From NCBI GenBank assembly GCA_903836515.1, contig CAILQW010000047.1, positions 1 to 40,713 on the forward strand: a stretch of DNA of 40,713 nucleotides. Direction: 5' to 3'. The notes under the pieces are model-generated. The model made no database searches. It worked only from the letters and a program-made list of their open reading frames with translations, and had not been told where the DNA came from. The translations under genes and the position numbers were made by a program. This document shows positions 3,422 through 34,574 of this stretch, one piece after another (positions within the stretch are counted from its first letter, which is position 1; each line of letters begins with the position of its first letter). This DNA is from Candidatus Omnitrophota bacterium. Lineage in GTDB: Bacteria > Omnitrophota > Gorgyraeia > Zapsychrales > Fredricksoniimonadaceae.

Positions 3422-3535
3422 TTTGAGGGTTGCGGCATGCCTTGCTGCTCAGACAGCAGAAACAGCTTTTTCTGAAAGCGTATTGAGGAGAGCTTGGTTT
3501 CTGAACTCGCATCAAGGCATGCCACAACCCTCAAA
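3422..3535 (+). repeat. Structured repeat A, copy 1 (palindromic, about 114 bp)
   Basis: Arms 3422-3444 and 3513-3535 are inverted repeats of 23 bp with one mismatch and frame a roughly 70-bp interior. The interior has its own small hairpin (CTGCT ... AGCAG). The reverse complement of 5027-5136 is a second copy, about 92% identical over the 98-bp core by hand alignment. Arm bases that differ between copies mostly change in pairs, so the fold appears conserved. The element looks like a non-autonomous dispersed repeat; I cannot see copies elsewhere in the window. Confidence 0.85.
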
Positions 3536-3634
3536 GAATAATGAGGCGATGTCGGCAGGCATGGACGTGTTAATAAAATGGTGCTACTGCAAAATCTGGG
3601 TTTATGGTACACTTGCCAAAAATGTTTCATTTAT

Positions 3635-3764
3635 GTTTAGCGCCCTGTGTTTTCGCCGCGCCAAGCGCCGGGTGCCTTTCCGCCTGGAACGAGGGGCGCA
3701 CAAGCCCCGAGAGAAGCCGGAAGGGTGGCGCGATAAGGCAGGCGAAAAATCGAATGCGCTAAAC
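3635..3764 (+). repeat. Structured repeat B, copy 1 (130 bp with terminal inverted repeats)
   Basis: The unit begins GTTTAGCGC and ends GCGCTAAAC, giving 9-bp terminal inverted repeats. Inside are nested complementary blocks: TTTTCGCC near the left end with GGCGAAAA near the right end, GCGCCA/TGGCGC, and a central GGGGC-GCACAA-GCCCC hairpin. The reverse complement of 5141-5270 is a second copy with only 4 differences over 130 bp. The unit is MITE-like in form or a structured RNA; it encodes no protein. Confidence 0.85.
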
Positions 3765-3788
3765 GTGTCCAACGTATCGAGGATATTT

Positions 3789-5012
3789 ATGACCAAGGAA
3801 AAACATCGTCTTTCCTGTGAAGATGAATTGAAGGCCTTACGGCGGGTTGTGGACATCACCACATCCGAACTCGAACTGGACGGTGTCCTGCACGAAATCG
3901 TGCGCACGGTCACAGATATCTCCCAGGCGGACTCTGTTTTCATTTATCTTTTCGATAGCGACAAGAAACATCTTGTTCTGCGTGCTTCCAAGACACCCCA
4001 TCGCAAAGAGCTTGGCCGGGTGGCGCTTAAAGTCGGCGAAGGGTTGACCGGCTGGGCGGCCCGCAACAACAAGCCCGTGATCATTACGGCCAATGCGTAT
4101 GAGGACCCGCGCTTCAAGGCGTTTGATGTGTTGCCGGAGGATCGTTATGAAGCGTTCCTGGCCCTGCCGATCGTTTATAAAGGAAAGGCCATCGGGGTCA
4201 TTAATCTTCAGCACAAGAAAGTGCATGAATATGCCGCAGCTACGGTGGACCTCTTAAGCGTGATCGCGCGCCAGGTCGGGGGCGTTATCGAGCATGCCAG
4301 GCTTTATGGCGAGACGCATTCCAAGGCCGTTCAGTTCGATGCTTTGGTCAAGGTCAGCCAGACGATCACTTCGCAGAAATATCTGGACGAAATTCTTAAC
4401 CTCATCGTTGTCGTTACCGCCGAGATGCTCAATTCCAAGATTTGCTCCATCATGCTCCTGGATCCCAAGGGGGTCGAGCTTTCCATTAAAGCGACCCAGA
4501 GCCTGAGTGATGAATACAAGAAGAAACCGAACCTGCGCGTGGATGCCAGCCTGATGGGCGAGGTTGTCAAGACCTGCCGGGCGATCGCCATCGAGGATGT
4601 GCGCCGGGAAAAACGTTATTTTTACCGTGAAATGGCGATCAAGGAGGGGTTGACCTCCATGCTGGCTGTACCCATGGTGGTCAAGGACCGGGTGGTGGGG
4701 GTTATCAGTGTGTACACCAAGGAGCCGCATGTTTTTACTGTCGATGAGATGGGGGTTTTCCAGATGGTCGCCAACCAGGCAGCGGTCGCGGTGGAGAATA
4801 CCAAGCTGATGGAGGAATCGCTGAAAGCCAAGGAGGCGCTTGAAACACGCAAGCAGGTTGAGCGTGCCAAGGGTGTGCTGATGAAAATGCAGAATATTTC
4901 CGAGGACGCGGCGTATCGGCTGATCCACAAAAAAAGCATGGATTCCTGCCGCTCCATGAAAGAGATCGCCGATTCGATTTTGCTTATGGCGGATTTCCAG
5001 CAGGCACGATGA
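3789..5012 (+). CDS. GAF-GAF-ANTAR RNA-binding antitermination regulator
   Basis: The 407-residue protein has a first GAF domain (about residues 28-170), a second (about 190-335), a short helix, and a C-terminal ANTAR domain (about 345-400) with the family pattern VERAKGVLMKMQNISEDAAY and SCRSMKEIAD. ANTAR domains (AmiR, NasR, EutV) bind two-hairpin leader RNAs and prevent transcription termination, often in nitrogen pathways. There is no phospho-receiver domain, so control is probably by a ligand bound to the GAF domains. The ATG at 3789 is supported by GAGG at 3779-3782, six bases upstream. The open frame extends back to 3423 but that part only translates repeats A1 and B1. The next gene is glnN, whose leader carries a candidate ANTAR target. 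The gene is bracketed by inverted copies of repeats A and B. Confidence 0.88.
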   Translation: MTKEKHRLSCEDELKALRRVVDITTSELELDGVLHEIVRTVTDISQADSVFIYLFDSDKKHLVLRASKTPHRKELGRVALKVGEGLTGWAARNNKPVIITANAYEDPRFKAFDVLPEDRYEAFLALPIVYKGKAIGVINLQHKKVHEYAAATVDLLSVIARQVGGVIEHARLYGETHSKAVQFDALVKVSQTITSQKYLDEILNLIVVVTAEMLNSKICSIMLLDPKGVELSIKATQSLSDEYKKKPNLRVDASLMGEVVKTCRAIAIEDVRREKRYFYREMAIKEGLTSMLAVPMVVKDRVVGVISVYTKEPHVFTVDEMGVFQMVANQAAVAVENTKLMEESLKAKEALETRKQVERAKGVLMKMQNISEDAAYRLIHKKSMDSCRSMKEIADSILLMADFQQAR

Positions 5013-5026
5013 TCCAGGTTGGTTTT

Positions 5027-5136
5027 CAAGGATTGCGGTATGCCTTGATGCGAGTTCAGAAACCAAGCTTTCCACAATATATTTTCAGAAAAAGCTGTTT
5101 CTGCTGTCTGAGCAGCAAGGCATACCGCAATCCTTG
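5027..5136 (-). repeat. Structured repeat A, copy 2 (inverted relative to copy 1)
   Basis: This is the reverse-complement counterpart of 3422-3535. Its arms are 5027-5047 and 5116-5136, perfectly complementary over 21 bp. Where copy 1 has a C-G pair in the arm (GGCATGCC) this copy has T-A (GGTATGCC with GGCATACC), and the outer bases GAGGG/CCCTC are replaced by AAGGA/TCCTT. It starts 14 bp after the stop codon of the ANTAR gene and could fold in that gene's 3' end. Confidence 0.85.
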
Positions 5137-5140
5137 GCAG

Positions 5141-5270
5141 GTTTAGCGCCATCGATTTTTCGCCTGCCTTATCGCGCCACCCTTCCGGCTTCTCTCGGGG
5201 CTTGTGCGCCCCTCGTTCCAGGCGGAAAGGCACCCGGCGCTTGGCGCGGCGAAAATACAAGGCGCTAAAC
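5141..5270 (-). repeat. Structured repeat B, copy 2 (inverted relative to copy 1)
   Basis: This is the reverse complement of 3635-3764 with 4 differences in 130 bp, and with perfect 10-bp terminal inverted repeats (GTTTAGCGCC at 5141-5150, GGCGCTAAAC at 5261-5270). It lies 4 bp after repeat A copy 2 and 30 bp before the -35 box of the glnN promoter. Confidence 0.85.
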
Positions 5271-5299
5271 ATGAACGATTTTTAAGGGAATTTTTTAAA

Positions 5300-5327
5300 T
5301 TGACAAAATCTGCTCCAGGGATATAAT
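5300..5327 (+). promoter_or_regulatory. Sigma70-type promoter of glnN
   Basis: TTGACA at 5300-5305, a 16-bp spacer, and TATAAT at 5322-5327: both boxes are consensus. Transcription should start near 5334, giving a leader of about 138 nt before glnN, long enough for the regulatory hairpins described next. The ANTAR gene ends upstream, so glnN need not depend on its transcript. Confidence 0.8.
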
Positions 5328-5342
5328 TTTGAACGATCCACA

Positions 5343-5391
5343 TGCCGCATAGATGTGTTGACAAGCAGGAACAGCAGGGCAATGACGTCCT
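5343..5391 (+). promoter_or_regulatory. Candidate ANTAR-binding two-hairpin site in the glnN leader
   Basis: Hairpin P2 (5376-5391) pairs AGGGC with GUCCU, one G-U included, around the hexaloop AAUGAC (5381-5386), with A at loop position 1 and G at position 4 as in known ANTAR targets. Its 3' arm shares CCU (5389-5391) with the 5' arm of the terminator at 5389-5431, so the two structures exclude each other. A weaker upstream hairpin P1 (5343-5360) has hexaloop AUAGAU (5349-5354), again A1 and G4, closed by C-G, G-U and C-G pairs, with a mismatch next. P1 could be outcompeted by a CACAU/AUGUG stem. The same P2 loop and the 11-mer GGGCAATGACG recur in the amtB leader. Confidence 0.65.
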
Positions 5392-5431
5392 CTTTTGGAG
5401 ACAGGGTATCTCCGGAAGAGGTATTTTTTTT
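5389..5431 (+). terminator. Leader (attenuator) terminator upstream of glnN
   Basis: A 13-bp stem pairs 5389-5401 with 5409-5421 (two G-U pairs), with loop CAGGGUA, followed after two bases by eight T residues at 5424-5431. It lies after the promoter and 40 bp before the glnN start codon, so unhindered transcription should stop before the gene. Confidence 0.82.
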
Positions 5432-5471: not shown

Positions 5472-7583
5472 ATGGCCAGGAAAGCGGTGTCAAAGAAAAC
5501 TTCAAGCAATGATGTTATCGCCAATATCTTTGGGGAGAATGTGTTCGGCCTCAAGGTCATGGAAAAGCGTTTGTCTTCCAAGGCGTTCAAATCCATGGAA
5601 AACACCATGAAGAGCGGCGGCAAACTCGATCCCGCCATTGCCCAGGAAGTGGCCGAGACCATGAAGGAATGGGCCATGGAAAAAGGGGCCACGCATTATT
5701 GCCATTGGTTCCAGCCGCTGACAGGGACGACCGCGGAGAAGCACGAAGCGTTCCTCGATTTTTCTCCCAAGGGTTTTGTGACAGATTTTGGCGCCAAACA
5801 GCTGATCCAGGGTGAGCCGGATGCTTCTTCGTTCCCCTCGGGCGGTCTGCGGGCGACATTTGAAGCGCGTGGTTATACCGGCTGGGATCCCAACAGCCCT
5901 GCGTTCATCAAGGAAACGTCCCAGGGTGCTGTCCTTTGCATCCCGACATTCTTTGTCGGCTGGAATGGCGAGGCCCTCGACAAGAAGACACCGCTCCTGC
6001 GTTCCATGAATGCCTTGAACACCCAGGTCAATCGTCTGGCGGAACTTTTTGGCATCAGCACCAAGGGCAAGCGTTCCTTTGCCACGCTTGGCGGCGAACA
6101 GGAATATTTCCTCATTGACCGCGATTTTTATCATCAGCGCATTGACCTGGTCCAGACCGGGCGCACTCTTTTCGGCAAGGAACCGGCCAAGCACCAGCAG
6201 ATGGCTGACCATTATTTCGGGGCCATCAAGGTGCGTATCGTTGAGTTCATGGAGGAGCTTGATCGTGAACTGTGGAAGGCCGGCATCCCGGCGAAGACCC
6301 GTCATAACGAGGTGGCACCTGCCCAATACGAGCTCGCCCCTGTTTTTGAGGAGCTCAACATTGCTGTCGATCACAATATGATCCTGATGGAAACGATGCA
6401 GAAGGTTGCGGAAAAGCACGGTTTTGTTTGTCTTCTTCACGAGAAGCCGTTTAAAGGCATCAATGGTTCCGGCAAGCACAACAACTGGTCTATTGTCGGG
6501 CCGGATGGCAAGAACTGGCTTTCACCGGGTGATAATCCGCACGAAAATGCAAAGTTCCTGGTTACTCTTGGCGCGGTCATCAAGGCTGTTGACACGCATG
6601 CGGACATTCTGCGTGCGACGGTCGCTTCTGCGGGCAATGATCACCGCCTGGGGTCTCACGAGGCGCCGCCCGCGATCGTTTCCGTCTTTTTGGGCGACCA
6701 GCTCAATGACATCATTGCCCAGATCGAAAAGGGCGACCTGAAGGAAACCAAGCAGGGCGGTACACTGCACGTGGGGGTTGATTCCCTGCCGGTGATCCCC
6801 AGGGATTCTTCCGACCGCAACCGCACCTCGCCGTTTGCCTTCACGGGTTCCAAGTTCGAGTTCCGCGCGGTGGGTTCGTCCTTCTCGCTGGCCGGCCCCA
6901 ATGTGGCGCTCAACACCATCGTGGCTGAAGCGATCGACGAGATCTGCACCAGGCTTGAGGGGGACAAAAAGCTGAAGAAGGATTTTAACGAATCCATCCA
7001 GAAGCTTCTGCAGGAGATCATCAAGAAGCACAAGCGCGTCATTTTCAACGGCGACGGTTATAAGGAAGAGTGGGTCAAGGAGGCAGAGCGCCGCGGCCTG
7101 CCCAATAACCGCACAACACCCGAGGCCCTTGAAGCCTTCAACACCAAGAAGGCCTCAGATCTTTTCGCCAAGTACGGTGTTTTGGCTCCCAAGGAGCTTG
7201 CCTCCCGCTATGAGATCTACAAGGAAACCTACGAGACGATCCTTCAGTATGAGGCGGATCTCGCGGTGGACATGGTGCGTACCATGTATCTCCCTGCGGT
7301 GGCAGCCCAGATGAATGAGCTGGCCCGTACAGTCAAGGCGGTTGAGGGTGTTGCGGTGCCAACAGCGGCCGTTAAAAAGAATCTGGCGGAGATTTCCGTT
7401 CTGAATGACAAGGCGCTTGAGCAGGTTGACGCGCTGGCGCAGGCGATCAAGGATGGCAAGCCCGGCCTGGAGAAGCGCAAGCTCATGGCGACGTTACGTA
7501 AGACCGTTGACGCCCTGGAAGGTCTTGTGGCTAAAGACTTTTGGCCCGTGCCGAGCTATGCGGAAATGTTGTTCATGATCTAA
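5472..7583 (+). CDS. glnN: Glutamine synthetase type III
   Basis: The 703-residue product makes glutamine from glutamate, ammonia and ATP in the cytoplasm. Length and motifs fit the GSIII family and not GSI/GSII: the N-terminal block FPSGGLRATFEARGYTGWDP, the pair GGEQEYFLID, and the ATP/glutamate-site stretches KTRHNEVAPAQYELAPVFEE and INGSGKHNNWS. GSIII enzymes lack the adenylylation site of GSI. The start is the ATG at 5472, with AGGAG at 5461-5465; the frame extends upstream to 5355 but that part is leader sequence carrying the terminator. Its own promoter and the leader attenuator suggest regulation at elongation level, plausibly by the ANTAR protein encoded just upstream. A strong terminator follows the stop codon. 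Confidence 0.95.
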   Translation: MARKAVSKKTSSNDVIANIFGENVFGLKVMEKRLSSKAFKSMENTMKSGGKLDPAIAQEVAETMKEWAMEKGATHYCHWFQPLTGTTAEKHEAFLDFSPKGFVTDFGAKQLIQGEPDASSFPSGGLRATFEARGYTGWDPNSPAFIKETSQGAVLCIPTFFVGWNGEALDKKTPLLRSMNALNTQVNRLAELFGISTKGKRSFATLGGEQEYFLIDRDFYHQRIDLVQTGRTLFGKEPAKHQQMADHYFGAIKVRIVEFMEELDRELWKAGIPAKTRHNEVAPAQYELAPVFEELNIAVDHNMILMETMQKVAEKHGFVCLLHEKPFKGINGSGKHNNWSIVGPDGKNWLSPGDNPHENAKFLVTLGAVIKAVDTHADILRATVASAGNDHRLGSHEAPPAIVSVFLGDQLNDIIAQIEKGDLKETKQGGTLHVGVDSLPVIPRDSSDRNRTSPFAFTGSKFEFRAVGSSFSLAGPNVALNTIVAEAIDEICTRLEGDKKLKKDFNESIQKLLQEIIKKHKRVIFNGDGYKEEWVKEAERRGLPNNRTTPEALEAFNTKKASDLFAKYGVLAPKELASRYEIYKETYETILQYEADLAVDMVRTMYLPAVAAQMNELARTVKAVEGVAVPTAAVKKNLAEISVLNDKALEQVDALAQAIKDGKPGLEKRKLMATLRKTVDALEGLVAKDFWPVPSYAEMLFMI

Positions 7584-32790: not shown

Positions 32791-33132
32791 CTAGCCGATG
32801 GCCCGGGGGCCTTCTTCCCCGGTGCGGATGCGGATACACCGTTTTAAATCGGTGACAAAGATTTTGCCATCGCCGATTTTTCCGGTGCGGGCCCCTTTGA
32901 TGATTGCCGCGACGGTACGTTCTTCGTATTCTTCATTGACCGCGATGTCGACGCGGATTTTTCGCAGGAGGTTTCCTGTTTCCTTGACACCGCGGTAGAA
33001 CTCGTCAATGCCGAACTGGCGGCCGTGGCCGAGCGCTTCGGAGACTGTGATGAGGTTAACCTCAGCGGCATATAGTTCTTTTTTGACTTCGTCGAGCCGG
33101 TGGGGCTGGATGATCGCCGTGATGAGTTTCAT
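32791..33132 (-). CDS. glnK: PII nitrogen regulatory protein, T-loop variant
   Basis: The 113-residue trimeric PII protein senses ATP/ADP and 2-oxoglutarate and usually controls AmtB, beside which it is encoded. The nucleotide and 2-oxoglutarate residues are kept: Gln39 (HGRQFG), Lys58, ARTGKIGDGKIFV and RIRTGE near the C-terminus. The T-loop differs: position 51, normally the uridylylated or adenylylated Tyr, is Glu (RGVKETGNLLRK), and position 49 is Val. Tyr46 remains. Covalent control at Tyr51 is therefore excluded. AAGGA precedes the ATG; it follows amtB by 15 bp in the order amtB-glnK. Confidence 0.95.
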   Translation of the reverse strand: MKLITAIIQPHRLDEVKKELYAAEVNLITVSEALGHGRQFGIDEFYRGVKETGNLLRKIRVDIAVNEEYEERTVAAIIKGARTGKIGDGKIFVTDLKRCIRIRTGEEGPRAIG

Positions 33133-33147
33133 GAAATATTCCTTTCG

Positions 33148-34386
33148 TTATTCCAGCATGGTGTAGGCGCGTTCGTAATGCTGGGTGATGTCCAGCCCCA
33201 TGATCTCGTCTTCGGGGGAGACCCTTAATCCCACAAGCTTGTTGACGGTCAGGGCGATGAGTGCGGTGGCGCCGGCACAATAGATGGCCGTGAAAGAGGC
33301 GGCGAGAATCTGGGTTTTGAGCAGGGCCGCGTTGCCCAGAAGAAGACCGTTGGCACCGGAGGGGTTGACCGCGGTGGTTGCGAAAATCCCTGTGGCGATC
33401 ATGCCCCAGAATCCGCCAACCCCGTGTACGCCAAAAGCGTCGAGGGAGTCGTCATAACCGAATTTCTGCTTGATTTTACTGACGGCAAAGAAGCTCAAGA
33501 CGCCAACAACAAACCCGATGATCATGGCGGCCCATGGTTCCACAAAGCCGCAGGCCGGGGTGATGGCCACGAGTCCGGCGACAACCCCTGAGATCGTTCC
33601 GAACATGGTGGGTTTGCCTGTCATGAACCACTCCACGGCGGCCCAGCTGACCGCGGCCGCGGCGGCGGCGAGATTGGTGGTCACAAAGGCATTGGCTGCG
33701 ACTCCGTTAGCCGCAAGGGCTGAGCCCGCATTGAAGCCGAGCCATCCGAACCATAATAATCCGCCGCCCAGGACAACAAAAGGAAGGTTGTGCAGGGTGG
33801 GGCGGGTGAGCCCGATACGTTTGCCAAGGATGATCGCGCTGACAAGTCCCGCGACGCCGCAGTTGATCTCAACGACACAACCGCCGGCGAAGTCGAGGAC
33901 GCCCATGCCGCGCAGCCAGCCGTCAGCCCCCCAGACCATGTGGCAGATAGGGATATAAACAAGGGTAAGCCACAGGAGCGCGAAGATCAGAAAAGCCGAG
34001 AATTTAATACGTTCGACCAGCGATCCAATGATGACCGCAGGGGTGATGACCGCGAACATGGCTTCAAAGATCATGAACGCGCTGTGCGGGATGGTGGGCG
34101 CGTAGGCCGGTTCAGGCGCTGCGCCGACACCTTTCAGCCAGGCCCACTCCAGGCCGCCGATAAATCCGTTGCCGCGGCCAAAGGCGAGTGAATAGCCGTA
34201 GATGGCCCAGGCCAGAAGAATGATGCCCAGGCACGCGAAGCATTTCATGAGGATAGCCAGGATGTTCTTGCGGCGCACCATGCCGCCATAAAAAAAGGCC
34301 AGGGCCGGTGTCATGAGCATCACAAGTCCTGCCGATATAAGGACCCAGGCCGTGTCTCCAGCGTTGATCCCGAGCGTTTGGTTCAT
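33148..34386 (-). CDS. amtB: Ammonium transporter, twin-His variant
   Basis: The 412-residue, 11-helix membrane channel imports ammonium. Family stretches include FFYGGMVRRKN, IICHMVWGADGWL-like PICHMVWGADGWL, and DDSLDAFGVHGVGG. The second pore histidine is present (His321), but the first is replaced by Glu173 (FAGGCVVEINCG instead of VVHINAG). The same replacement is known from yeast Mep1/Mep3, so the channel is probably functional with altered pH or flux behaviour. The ATG at 34386 has AGGAG 8 bases upstream; a longer frame to 34452 only translates the leader. Transcription starts at a strong promoter (34546-34574) and must pass a leader terminator. glnK follows. Confidence 0.95.
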   Translation of the reverse strand: MNQTLGINAGDTAWVLISAGLVMLMTPALAFFYGGMVRRKNILAILMKCFACLGIILLAWAIYGYSLAFGRGNGFIGGLEWAWLKGVGAAPEPAYAPTIPHSAFMIFEAMFAVITPAVIIGSLVERIKFSAFLIFALLWLTLVYIPICHMVWGADGWLRGMGVLDFAGGCVVEINCGVAGLVSAIILGKRIGLTRPTLHNLPFVVLGGGLLWFGWLGFNAGSALAANGVAANAFVTTNLAAAAAAVSWAAVEWFMTGKPTMFGTISGVVAGLVAITPACGFVEPWAAMIIGFVVGVLSFFAVSKIKQKFGYDDSLDAFGVHGVGGFWGMIATGIFATTAVNPSGANGLLLGNAALLKTQILAASFTAIYCAGATALIALTVNKLVGLRVSPEDEIMGLDITQHYERAYTMLE

Positions 34387-34431: not shown

Positions 34432-34477
34432 CAAACAAAAAGCCCGGCTCACCCATCAAGATAGGGGGGAACCGGGC
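34432..34477 (-). terminator. Leader (attenuator) terminator upstream of amtB
   Basis: On the minus strand GCCCGG (34477-34472) pairs with CCGGGC (34447-34442), and the RNA continues with UUUUUGUUU. It lies 55 bp before the amtB start codon and after the promoter, so it can stop transcription before the gene. Confidence 0.78.
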
Positions 34478-34538
34478 GTCATTGCCCGTGGATCTGTTGC
34501 GCCATTGCGTTCCGTCTGACAACACTGCCGGCACGGAA
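34473..34538 (-). promoter_or_regulatory. Candidate ANTAR-binding two-hairpin site in the amtB leader
   Basis: P2 (34488-34473, minus strand) is a perfect 5-bp CGGGC/GCCCG stem around hexaloop AAUGAC, identical to the loop in the glnN leader. Its whole 3' arm is the 5' arm of the terminator at 34432-34477, so only one can form. P1 (34538-34510) has an outer 6-bp stem UUCCGU/ACGGAA and an inner stem closing the hexaloop AGUGUU (34526-34521) through C-G, G-U and G-C pairs. Both loops have A at position 1 and G at position 4. About 21 nt separate P1 and P2. Confidence 0.68.
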
Positions 34539-34545
34539 TTTCGAA

Positions 34546-34574
34546 ATCATACCTGCGGGTGGAATAAATGTCAA
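34546..34574 (-). promoter_or_regulatory. Sigma70-type promoter of amtB-glnK
   Basis: On the minus strand: TTGACA (34574-34569), a 17-bp spacer and TATGAT (34551-34546). Expected start near 34539, just at the 5' side of hairpin P1, giving a leader of about 153 nt. Confidence 0.8.

Follow-up and report, generated by a model that had tools for sequence, protein, structure and literature searches.

The amtB gene (33148..34386, minus strand; PF00909, E = 1e-127) encodes an ammonium transporter in a 40,713-nt stretch of DNA of an Omnitrophota bacterium, the whole of which was analysed and is here called the window. An intrinsic terminator stands between its promoter and its coding sequence, and the locus raises the question of what would let transcription pass it. 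A sequence-only reading of the window had assigned this leader, along with that of a glutamine synthetase gene, to a two-gene RNA regulon linked to an ANTAR protein. We consider it highly probable that the amtB leader is an ANTAR-responsive transcription-attenuation leader. The basis, by sequence, is the promoter, the hairpins, mutual exclusion, conservation, covariation and the association with ANTAR and nitrogen genes; protein binding, dimerisation, the signal, the direction of regulation and antitermination are what we infer.

Anatomy of the amtB leader

The leader (34574-34436, minus strand) comprises a sigma-70 type promoter, hairpins and an intrinsic terminator, and amtB is followed by a glnB-type P-II gene (32791..33132, minus strand; PF00543). 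Reading the minus strand confirmed the design that had been described, namely a consensus promoter and a perfect CGGGC-AAUGAC-GCCCG hairpin with a 3' arm that doubles as the 5' arm of the terminator. The promoter (34546..34574, minus strand), read directly, consists of TTGACA (34574-34569), a 17-nt spacer and TATGAT (34551-34546), and promoters align among the ortholog leaders. The perfect hairpin, a putative antiterminator that we call P2 (34473..34488, minus strand), was found both by reading and by a hairpin/terminator scan, and its core is invariant among orthologs. The terminator (34436..34477, minus strand; -22.9 kcal/mol) has positions 34477-34473 in common with P2 and opens with the P2 3' arm GCCCG, running GCCCGGTTC...GAGCCGGGC-TTTTT.

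Upstream of P2, a single hairpin with an A-x-x-G-x-x loop had been proposed. Reading and orthologs gave two candidates, not one: P1 (34498..34509, minus strand; CGC-AAUGGC-GCA) and P0 (34510..34538, minus strand), which reads UUCCGUGCCGGC-AGUGUU-GUCAGACGGAA as RNA and TTCCGTGCCGGC-AGTGTT-GTCAGACGGAA in DNA letters. The P1 and P2 loops, AAUGGC and AAUGAC, are hexaloops with A1 and G4, separated by a linker of 9 nt and a loop-to-loop distance of 17 nt (16-20 in relatives). The P1 stem is weak here, with two Watson-Crick pairs and a C-A mismatch, versus up to five pairs in orthologs; P0, whose stem is imperfect and has mismatches in the window, is the stronger of the upstream hairpins. Because both stems are weak and both are absent from the unconstrained minimum-energy fold, their assignment in the window rests on the orthologs. 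The unconstrained fold (-35.4 kcal/mol, versus -31.3 kcal/mol with P2 enforced) prefers the terminator and a different upstream fold, which is expected for a default-off state and is no proof of a switch.

The glnN leader and the ANTAR gene

On the plus strand, a similar leader precedes glnN (5472..7583; PF12437 and PF18318), which encodes a type III glutamine synthetase. Its promoter, read directly, is TTGACA-16-TATAAT (5300..5327, plus strand), and its P2, AGGGC-AAUGAC-GUCCU (5376..5391, plus strand), was seen by reading and by the scan and has orthologs with the same core. The intrinsic terminator (5389..5431, plus strand) shares the end of GUCCU with P2; its tip, AGGGUA (5403-5408), resembles the terminator-tip hairpins described below but is flanked by a C-U mismatch. 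A weak candidate P1, CGC-AUAGAU-GUG (5346..5357, plus strand), is spanned by a covariance model that was untrained on the glnN leader, and its 18-nt linker to P2 lies outside the 5-12 nt range of EutV sites. The leader folds at -27.6 kcal/mol when free versus -21.6 kcal/mol with P2 enforced.

The 11-mer GGGCAATGACG, reported to be identical in both leaders, occurs exactly twice in the window, in the amtB and glnN leaders. Tolerating one mismatch raises the count to 5, versus 1.3 expected and 4 in the largest shuffle. AxxGxx hairpins overlapping a terminator were found as two strong cases in 40.7 kb, glnN (-19.0 kcal/mol) and amtB (-22.9 kcal/mol), and the same scan of ten shuffled windows returned 0-5 matches each at a floor of -8 kcal/mol.

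Pfam bore out the claim that the motif stands before an ammonium transporter (PF00909) and a glutamine synthetase (PF12437/PF18318) with an ANTAR gene (PF03861) in the window. That gene (3789..5012, plus strand) encodes a GAF-GAF-ANTAR protein, which we propose as the trans-acting RNA-binding regulator on the strength of PF03861 and its relatives. Its ANTAR domain scored 68.7 bits against a curated cut-off of 27.3, and a Pfam search beside it found GAF domains only and no NIT sensor domain. It is the one ANTAR gene in its own 2.0-Mb, 96%-complete genome and lies immediately upstream of glnN. The closest named relatives of the protein are from Candidatus Omnitrophota MAGs, and 27 of the 32 genomes in the window's family encode a protein 65-100% identical to it. 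The ANTAR gene is followed by the type III glutamine synthetase gene in 11 genomes, including its own, and lies beside amtB in others; this swap of neighbours between exactly amtB and the synthetase is evidence of a functional link.

We also observed a dispersed repeat, two opposite copies of which (3422-3767 and 5027-5278) flank the ANTAR gene, with arms of 141 nt (95% complementary) and 106 nt (91% complementary). Translated, the repeat accounts for the initial ~117 codons of the long open reading frame from 3423 and has about two dozen matches elsewhere in the genome; therefore, the true start of the ANTAR gene is probably ATG 3789 and not TTG 3423.

Conservation and covariation in ortholog leaders

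The amtB ortholog leaders were collected by protein homology, not by motif, and nine were aligned. P0, P1 and P2 together paired in 86.2% of cells, versus 24-43% with the partner slid, and the terminator was paired in 95.1% of cells. Changes on both sides occurred in 8 of 10 pairs of P0, and double changes in 4 of 9 pairs of the terminator, counts that come from related sequences and are not independent events. The C-G closing pair of each hairpin (columns 22-29, 46-53 and 71-78 for P0, P1 and P2) was invariant in all sequences having letters there. A1 and G4 were found in the P2 loop of 9/9 orthologs and in the P1 loop of all 8 that have P1 (AAUGGC, AAUGAU, AAUGAG, AUUGAC, AAUGAU, AAUGAU, AUUGAA and AACGAG; P1 is absent in L035), a strong example of P1 being GGUAC-AAUGAU-GUACC before amtB in L039. 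The P0 loops (AGUGUU, GCCGUU, AGUGUU, GCUGGC, GCUGUU, AUUGAU, AUUGAC, AGCGUA and AAAGCU) have G at position 4 in 9/9, and A in 6 and G in 3 at position 1. As read here, the amtB leader has three predicted hairpins of the same type, one beyond the published element.

The glnN ortholog leaders, likewise fetched by protein homology, carry AGGGC-AxUGxx-GUCCU and a terminator, L014 differing slightly, and a strong P1 is seen as UGAAGAC-AGUGUG-GUCUUCA in L004. Covariation in a set of P2 hairpins named A3 was left out of the evidence because its members had been picked for pairing.

These alignments bear on whether the two leaders are alike by chance or composition, their terminators being ordinary ones. 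The exact word common to both is 11 nt only, which speaks for such a reading, but the core is conserved among orthologs with covariation around it, and the same core stands before amtB or glutamine synthetase in many genera. This covariation and the phylum-wide scan given below already contradict a chance resemblance, whose probability we regard as negligible.

Further operons in the same genome

Two covariance models were built, R1 for P1-linker-P2, with a seed that includes the window amtB leader but not glnN, and R2 for P2 plus terminator, with a seed that includes both window leaders. Because the P2-plus-terminator pattern itself helped to select the R2 seed, R2 is no independent proof of that pattern. 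The bacterium's own genome was searched by these models only. The top two R1 matches genome-wide were the amtB and glnN leaders (E = 5e-6 and 0.04). Further R1 matches (on contigs C18, C25, C39 and C3) had no overlapping terminator and lay in or at coding sequence, and were taken as chance.

R2 gave six matches at E <= 0.01, including glnN, amtB, C12:21027, C12:19057 and C16:10909, showing that a regulon of two genes was too small: the genome adds an amtB2-glnB operon, perhaps an ATP-synthase operon and perhaps an exported protein. The leader of the amtB2-glnB2 operon (C12:21027) carries GAAGAC-AAAGAC-GUCUUC overlapping a terminator, orthologs carry AAGAC-AAAGGC-GUCUU, and it is a firm member of the predicted regulon. 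Directly downstream of this operon, the ATP-synthase leader (C12:19057-19135, L151) has GAAGGC-AAUGAU-GUCUUC overlapping a terminator, as a single hairpin (P2 only) immediately following a consensus promoter, and only a few relatives (L227 and L234) retain P2; on these two grounds it was dropped from firm member to tentative. Equally tentative is C16:10909 (C16:10855-10962, L282), with two attenuators ahead of a gene for a conserved exported protein. This protein has no Pfam match, and in two or three genomes (L282, L188 and L314) its gene is preceded by ANTAR-like attenuators.

Leader matches across Omnitrophota

The covariance-model scan proposed with the sequence-only reading was run on the bacterium's own genome and an even sample of 193 Omnitrophota genomes, 141 with an ANTAR gene and 52 without. 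As had been predicted, the matches overlapped terminators and fell mainly in nitrogen-gene leaders, and they followed the presence of ANTAR genes. R2 matches at E <= 0.01 were found in 86 of the 193 genomes, comprising 77 of the 141 ANTAR-bearing versus 9 of the 52 ANTAR-less genomes (Fisher p = 3e-6). Many matches have an ANTAR gene at most about 600 nt upstream, for example G143:C59, G199:C22, G116:C176, G097:C21, G040:C21, G046:C12, G166:C48, G103:C1, G213:C62 and G179:C79. Among the nine ANTAR-less genomes with matches (G076, G077, G085, G102, G106, G130, G139, G198 and G214), some are incomplete, and G139 and G198 are ~93% complete. Three of them, G198, G139 and G102, have strong R2 matches (E about 5e-7) with no ANTAR gene detected; either the ANTAR gene is missing from the assembly or a different regulator acts there.

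The first gene after the R2 match in 84 leaders was AmtB in 18, type III glutamine synthetase in 10, type I glutamine synthetase in 2, PII in 2, NirB in 1, ANTAR in 2, the exported protein in 2 and another gene in 47. Among the last group, Pfam confirmed one representative each of NifH, glutamate dehydrogenase, a class II glutamine amidotransferase (glutamate synthase type), a class I glutamine amidotransferase and a nitrilase/NAD-synthase type protein. Proteins named by eye as sigma-factor-like, outer-membrane barrel and ferredoxin-reductase-like had no Pfam match in the scanned stretch. This set of first genes fits the nitrogen theme of ANTAR regulons reported in other phyla.

A proposed mechanism and its relation to known ANTAR systems

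We propose that RNA polymerase would start at the amtB promoter (34574-34546) and by default terminate at the hairpin 34477-34437, leaving amtB-glnB off. Under what is presumably nitrogen limitation, the GAF-GAF-ANTAR protein (3789-5012) would become active, probably as a dimer, and would bind both the AxxGxx loop of P2 and that of an adjacent hairpin (P1 or P0), holding P2 closed. Because the P2 3' arm is the terminator 5' arm, closure of P2 would block the terminator, and amtB would be transcribed. The same protein would act on glnN beside its own gene and on at least amtB2-glnB2. Default termination is consistent with the folding energies of the two leaders, the gap between the free and P2-enforced folds being, in the folding model, the cost that a bound protein would pay.

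Work on EutV (PMC3369931) defines an ANTAR RNA as a pair of small hairpins, each with an A1/G4 hexaloop, of which the second overlaps the terminator; for EutV, positions 1 and 4 of the loop, the first hairpin (P1) and the linker were shown to be important. NasR selected by SELEX a consensus of a terminal C:G pair, A1 and G4 (PMC7496416). Counted along the alignment, R340, K347 and the aromatic residue 362, which are key RNA-binding residues of NasR, correspond to R, K and Y in the window protein; K345 is R, a swap that NasR tolerates, and R366 and N373 are H and C.

These comparisons bear on whether the hairpins could be targets of another RNA-binding protein or of a riboswitch, for example of the glutamine type, with the ANTAR gene incidental. 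Binding by the ANTAR protein is something we infer, and P2-only leaders exist (ATP synthase and several glnA/glnN leaders of relatives), both of which leave such a reading some room. However, Rfam searches of the whole window and, permissively, of both leaders (E up to 10) gave no plausible family, the loop and closing-pair rules are those that NasR selected in vitro, and leader matches follow ANTAR genes across the phylum; we judge this alternative improbable. A glutamine riboswitch or other Rfam leader family was rejected as an assignment, neither leader matching such a model.

We return to ANTAR control of the amtB leader. The EutV/EutW system of the eut genes (Ramesh et al. 2012, PMC3369931) resembles ours in having two A1/G4 hairpins, the last overlapping the terminator, and in placing several operons under one ANTAR protein. 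It differs in its phosphorylated receiver, where the sensor here is GAF-GAF, and here there is an extra conserved P0 before amtB, in many relatives the second hairpin is probably the terminator tip, and the phylum is Omnitrophota. NasR (NIT-ANTAR, nasF; PMC7496416) is likewise a one-component sensor-ANTAR protein that recognises a C:G-closed A1/G4 hexaloop, with R340, K347 and the aromatic residue 362, whereas here two GAF domains replace its nitrate-sensing NIT domain and the regulon is ammonium assimilation rather than nitrate assimilation. The predicted ANTAR regulons of Desulfotomaculum and Pelobacter are, as here, multi-operon nitrogen regulons; D. acetoxidans has 13 attenuators in six transcription units, and the ANTAR targets reported from elsewhere already include ammonium transporters, P-II and glutamine/glutamate synthases (PMC3369931). 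Those elements are of the upstream two-hairpin kind, the main text of that paper describing no terminator-tip hairpin.

No GAF-ANTAR protein had been characterised as of 2012, and no paper turned up in a full-text search combining Omnitrophota with ANTAR. A nif antitermination cascade (GnfR) is known in Geobacter; it is not relied on here. The system is known in kind, as ANTAR antitermination, and so is its link to nitrogen genes (PMC3369931); to this kind the window amtB leader adds a new member, distinguished by its extra hairpin. The assignment would give the uncultured phylum Omnitrophota a nitrogen-control mechanism with its regulator and operons named.

A proposed second hairpin at the terminator tip

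In many relatives P2 starts within about 20 nt of the -10 box, with no room for an upstream hairpin. Their terminators can end in C-G-closed AxxGxx tips, such as AAAGAC-AAUGAA-GUUUUU in L172 and AAAAC-AAUGAU-GUUUU in L175, and L018 has two, AAAAGC-AAUGUU-GUUUUU and AAGUC-AGCGAU-GACUU. The terminators detected in 1.25 Mb of retrieved DNA had A1/G4 hexaloop tips in 21 of 52 P2-overlapping versus 28 of 597 other cases (p = 1e-12), and C-G-closed ones in 18 of 52 versus 13 of 597 (p = 9e-14); R2 matches outside the pattern-found set had A1/G4 tips in 18 of 51 (p = 4e-10), all of these p-values being inflated by the relatedness of the genomes. The loop-to-loop distance from P2 to the tip is 11-18 nt (mean 14.4), and that from P1 to P2 in amtB leaders 16-20 nt (mean 17.8). 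Spacing alone does not single out the tip hairpin, because tips lacking A1/G4 lie at similar distances (9-21 nt from the P2 loop, mean 15.3).

Tip and upstream hairpin also divide according to position. Where a promoter could be recognised, 50 leaders placed P2 no more than 30 nt from the -10 box; 20 of these had an A/G1-G4 tip and 2 had P1. Of the 65 leaders with a longer distance, 25 had P1 and 8 had an A/G1-G4 tip. Only one leader had both. Some leaders (ATP synthase and several glutamine synthetases) show neither; there, P2 may act alone, or the second hairpin may be one not recognised here.

We lean, with less assurance than for the amtB leader itself, towards nested ANTAR antiterminators in these relatives, in which P2 lies near the transcription start and its partner is the terminator tip, P3; the amtB leader would then be a third, three-hairpin form. 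Where a related leader begins too close to P2 for an upstream hairpin, P3 would often serve as the second recognition hairpin; its C-G-closed AxxGxx hexaloop follows the P2 loop at a distance of about 14 nt. A dimer spanning P2 and the tip would then open the terminator at its base, and several such units, each about 50 nt long, could be arranged in tandem. Trains of two or three attenuators of ~50 nt do precede amt or porin-like genes (L083 5299-5402, L109 5243-5363, L141 5288-5408 and L172 1485-1609).

Alternatively, terminator stems of this kind might simply favour such tips for their stability, and recognition would be confined to P2, or to P1 and P2. Other tips are found in 31 of the 52 P2 terminators, a tip such as A-AUGA-U can be read as a tetraloop closed by A-U, and the tip counts come from related sequences that are not independent, all of which speak for stable loops. 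In contrast, C-G-closed A1/G4 tips are enriched over the other terminators of the same loci, the A1/G4 enrichment is repeated in non-seed matches, and A1/G4 tips avoid leaders having P1. Moreover, the tip loops are diverse (AUAGCU, ACAGGU, AGCGAU and AAUGUG) and share little but A1 and G4, which argues that these two positions were kept by selection and not by descent alone. We consider the stable-loop explanation unlikely, if still a serious one.

The nested form appears new, as far as the accessible literature goes. If it is true, searches requiring two hairpins upstream of a terminator would have missed some ANTAR targets in other phyla too. The two arrangements would also offer a geometry test for the ANTAR dimer, with hairpin pairs upstream of or inside the terminator at a loop-to-loop distance of about 14-18 nt.

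Other genes behind attenuators

Outside the window's order, a gene that is sigma-factor-like by eye repeatedly follows the attenuator (L274, L295, L296, L322, L324, L327, L330, L332, L333 and L334), and the genomes concerned have ANTAR proteins of ~240 aa; a regulatory cascade is possible. Outer-membrane beta-barrel-like proteins, also named by eye, stand behind attenuators in L286, L287, L291, L303, L311 and L325 and are possibly uptake porins of the nitrogen regulon. Finally, some ANTAR genes carry an attenuator in their own leader (L253 in G143, L107, L112 and L309), which suggests autoregulation.
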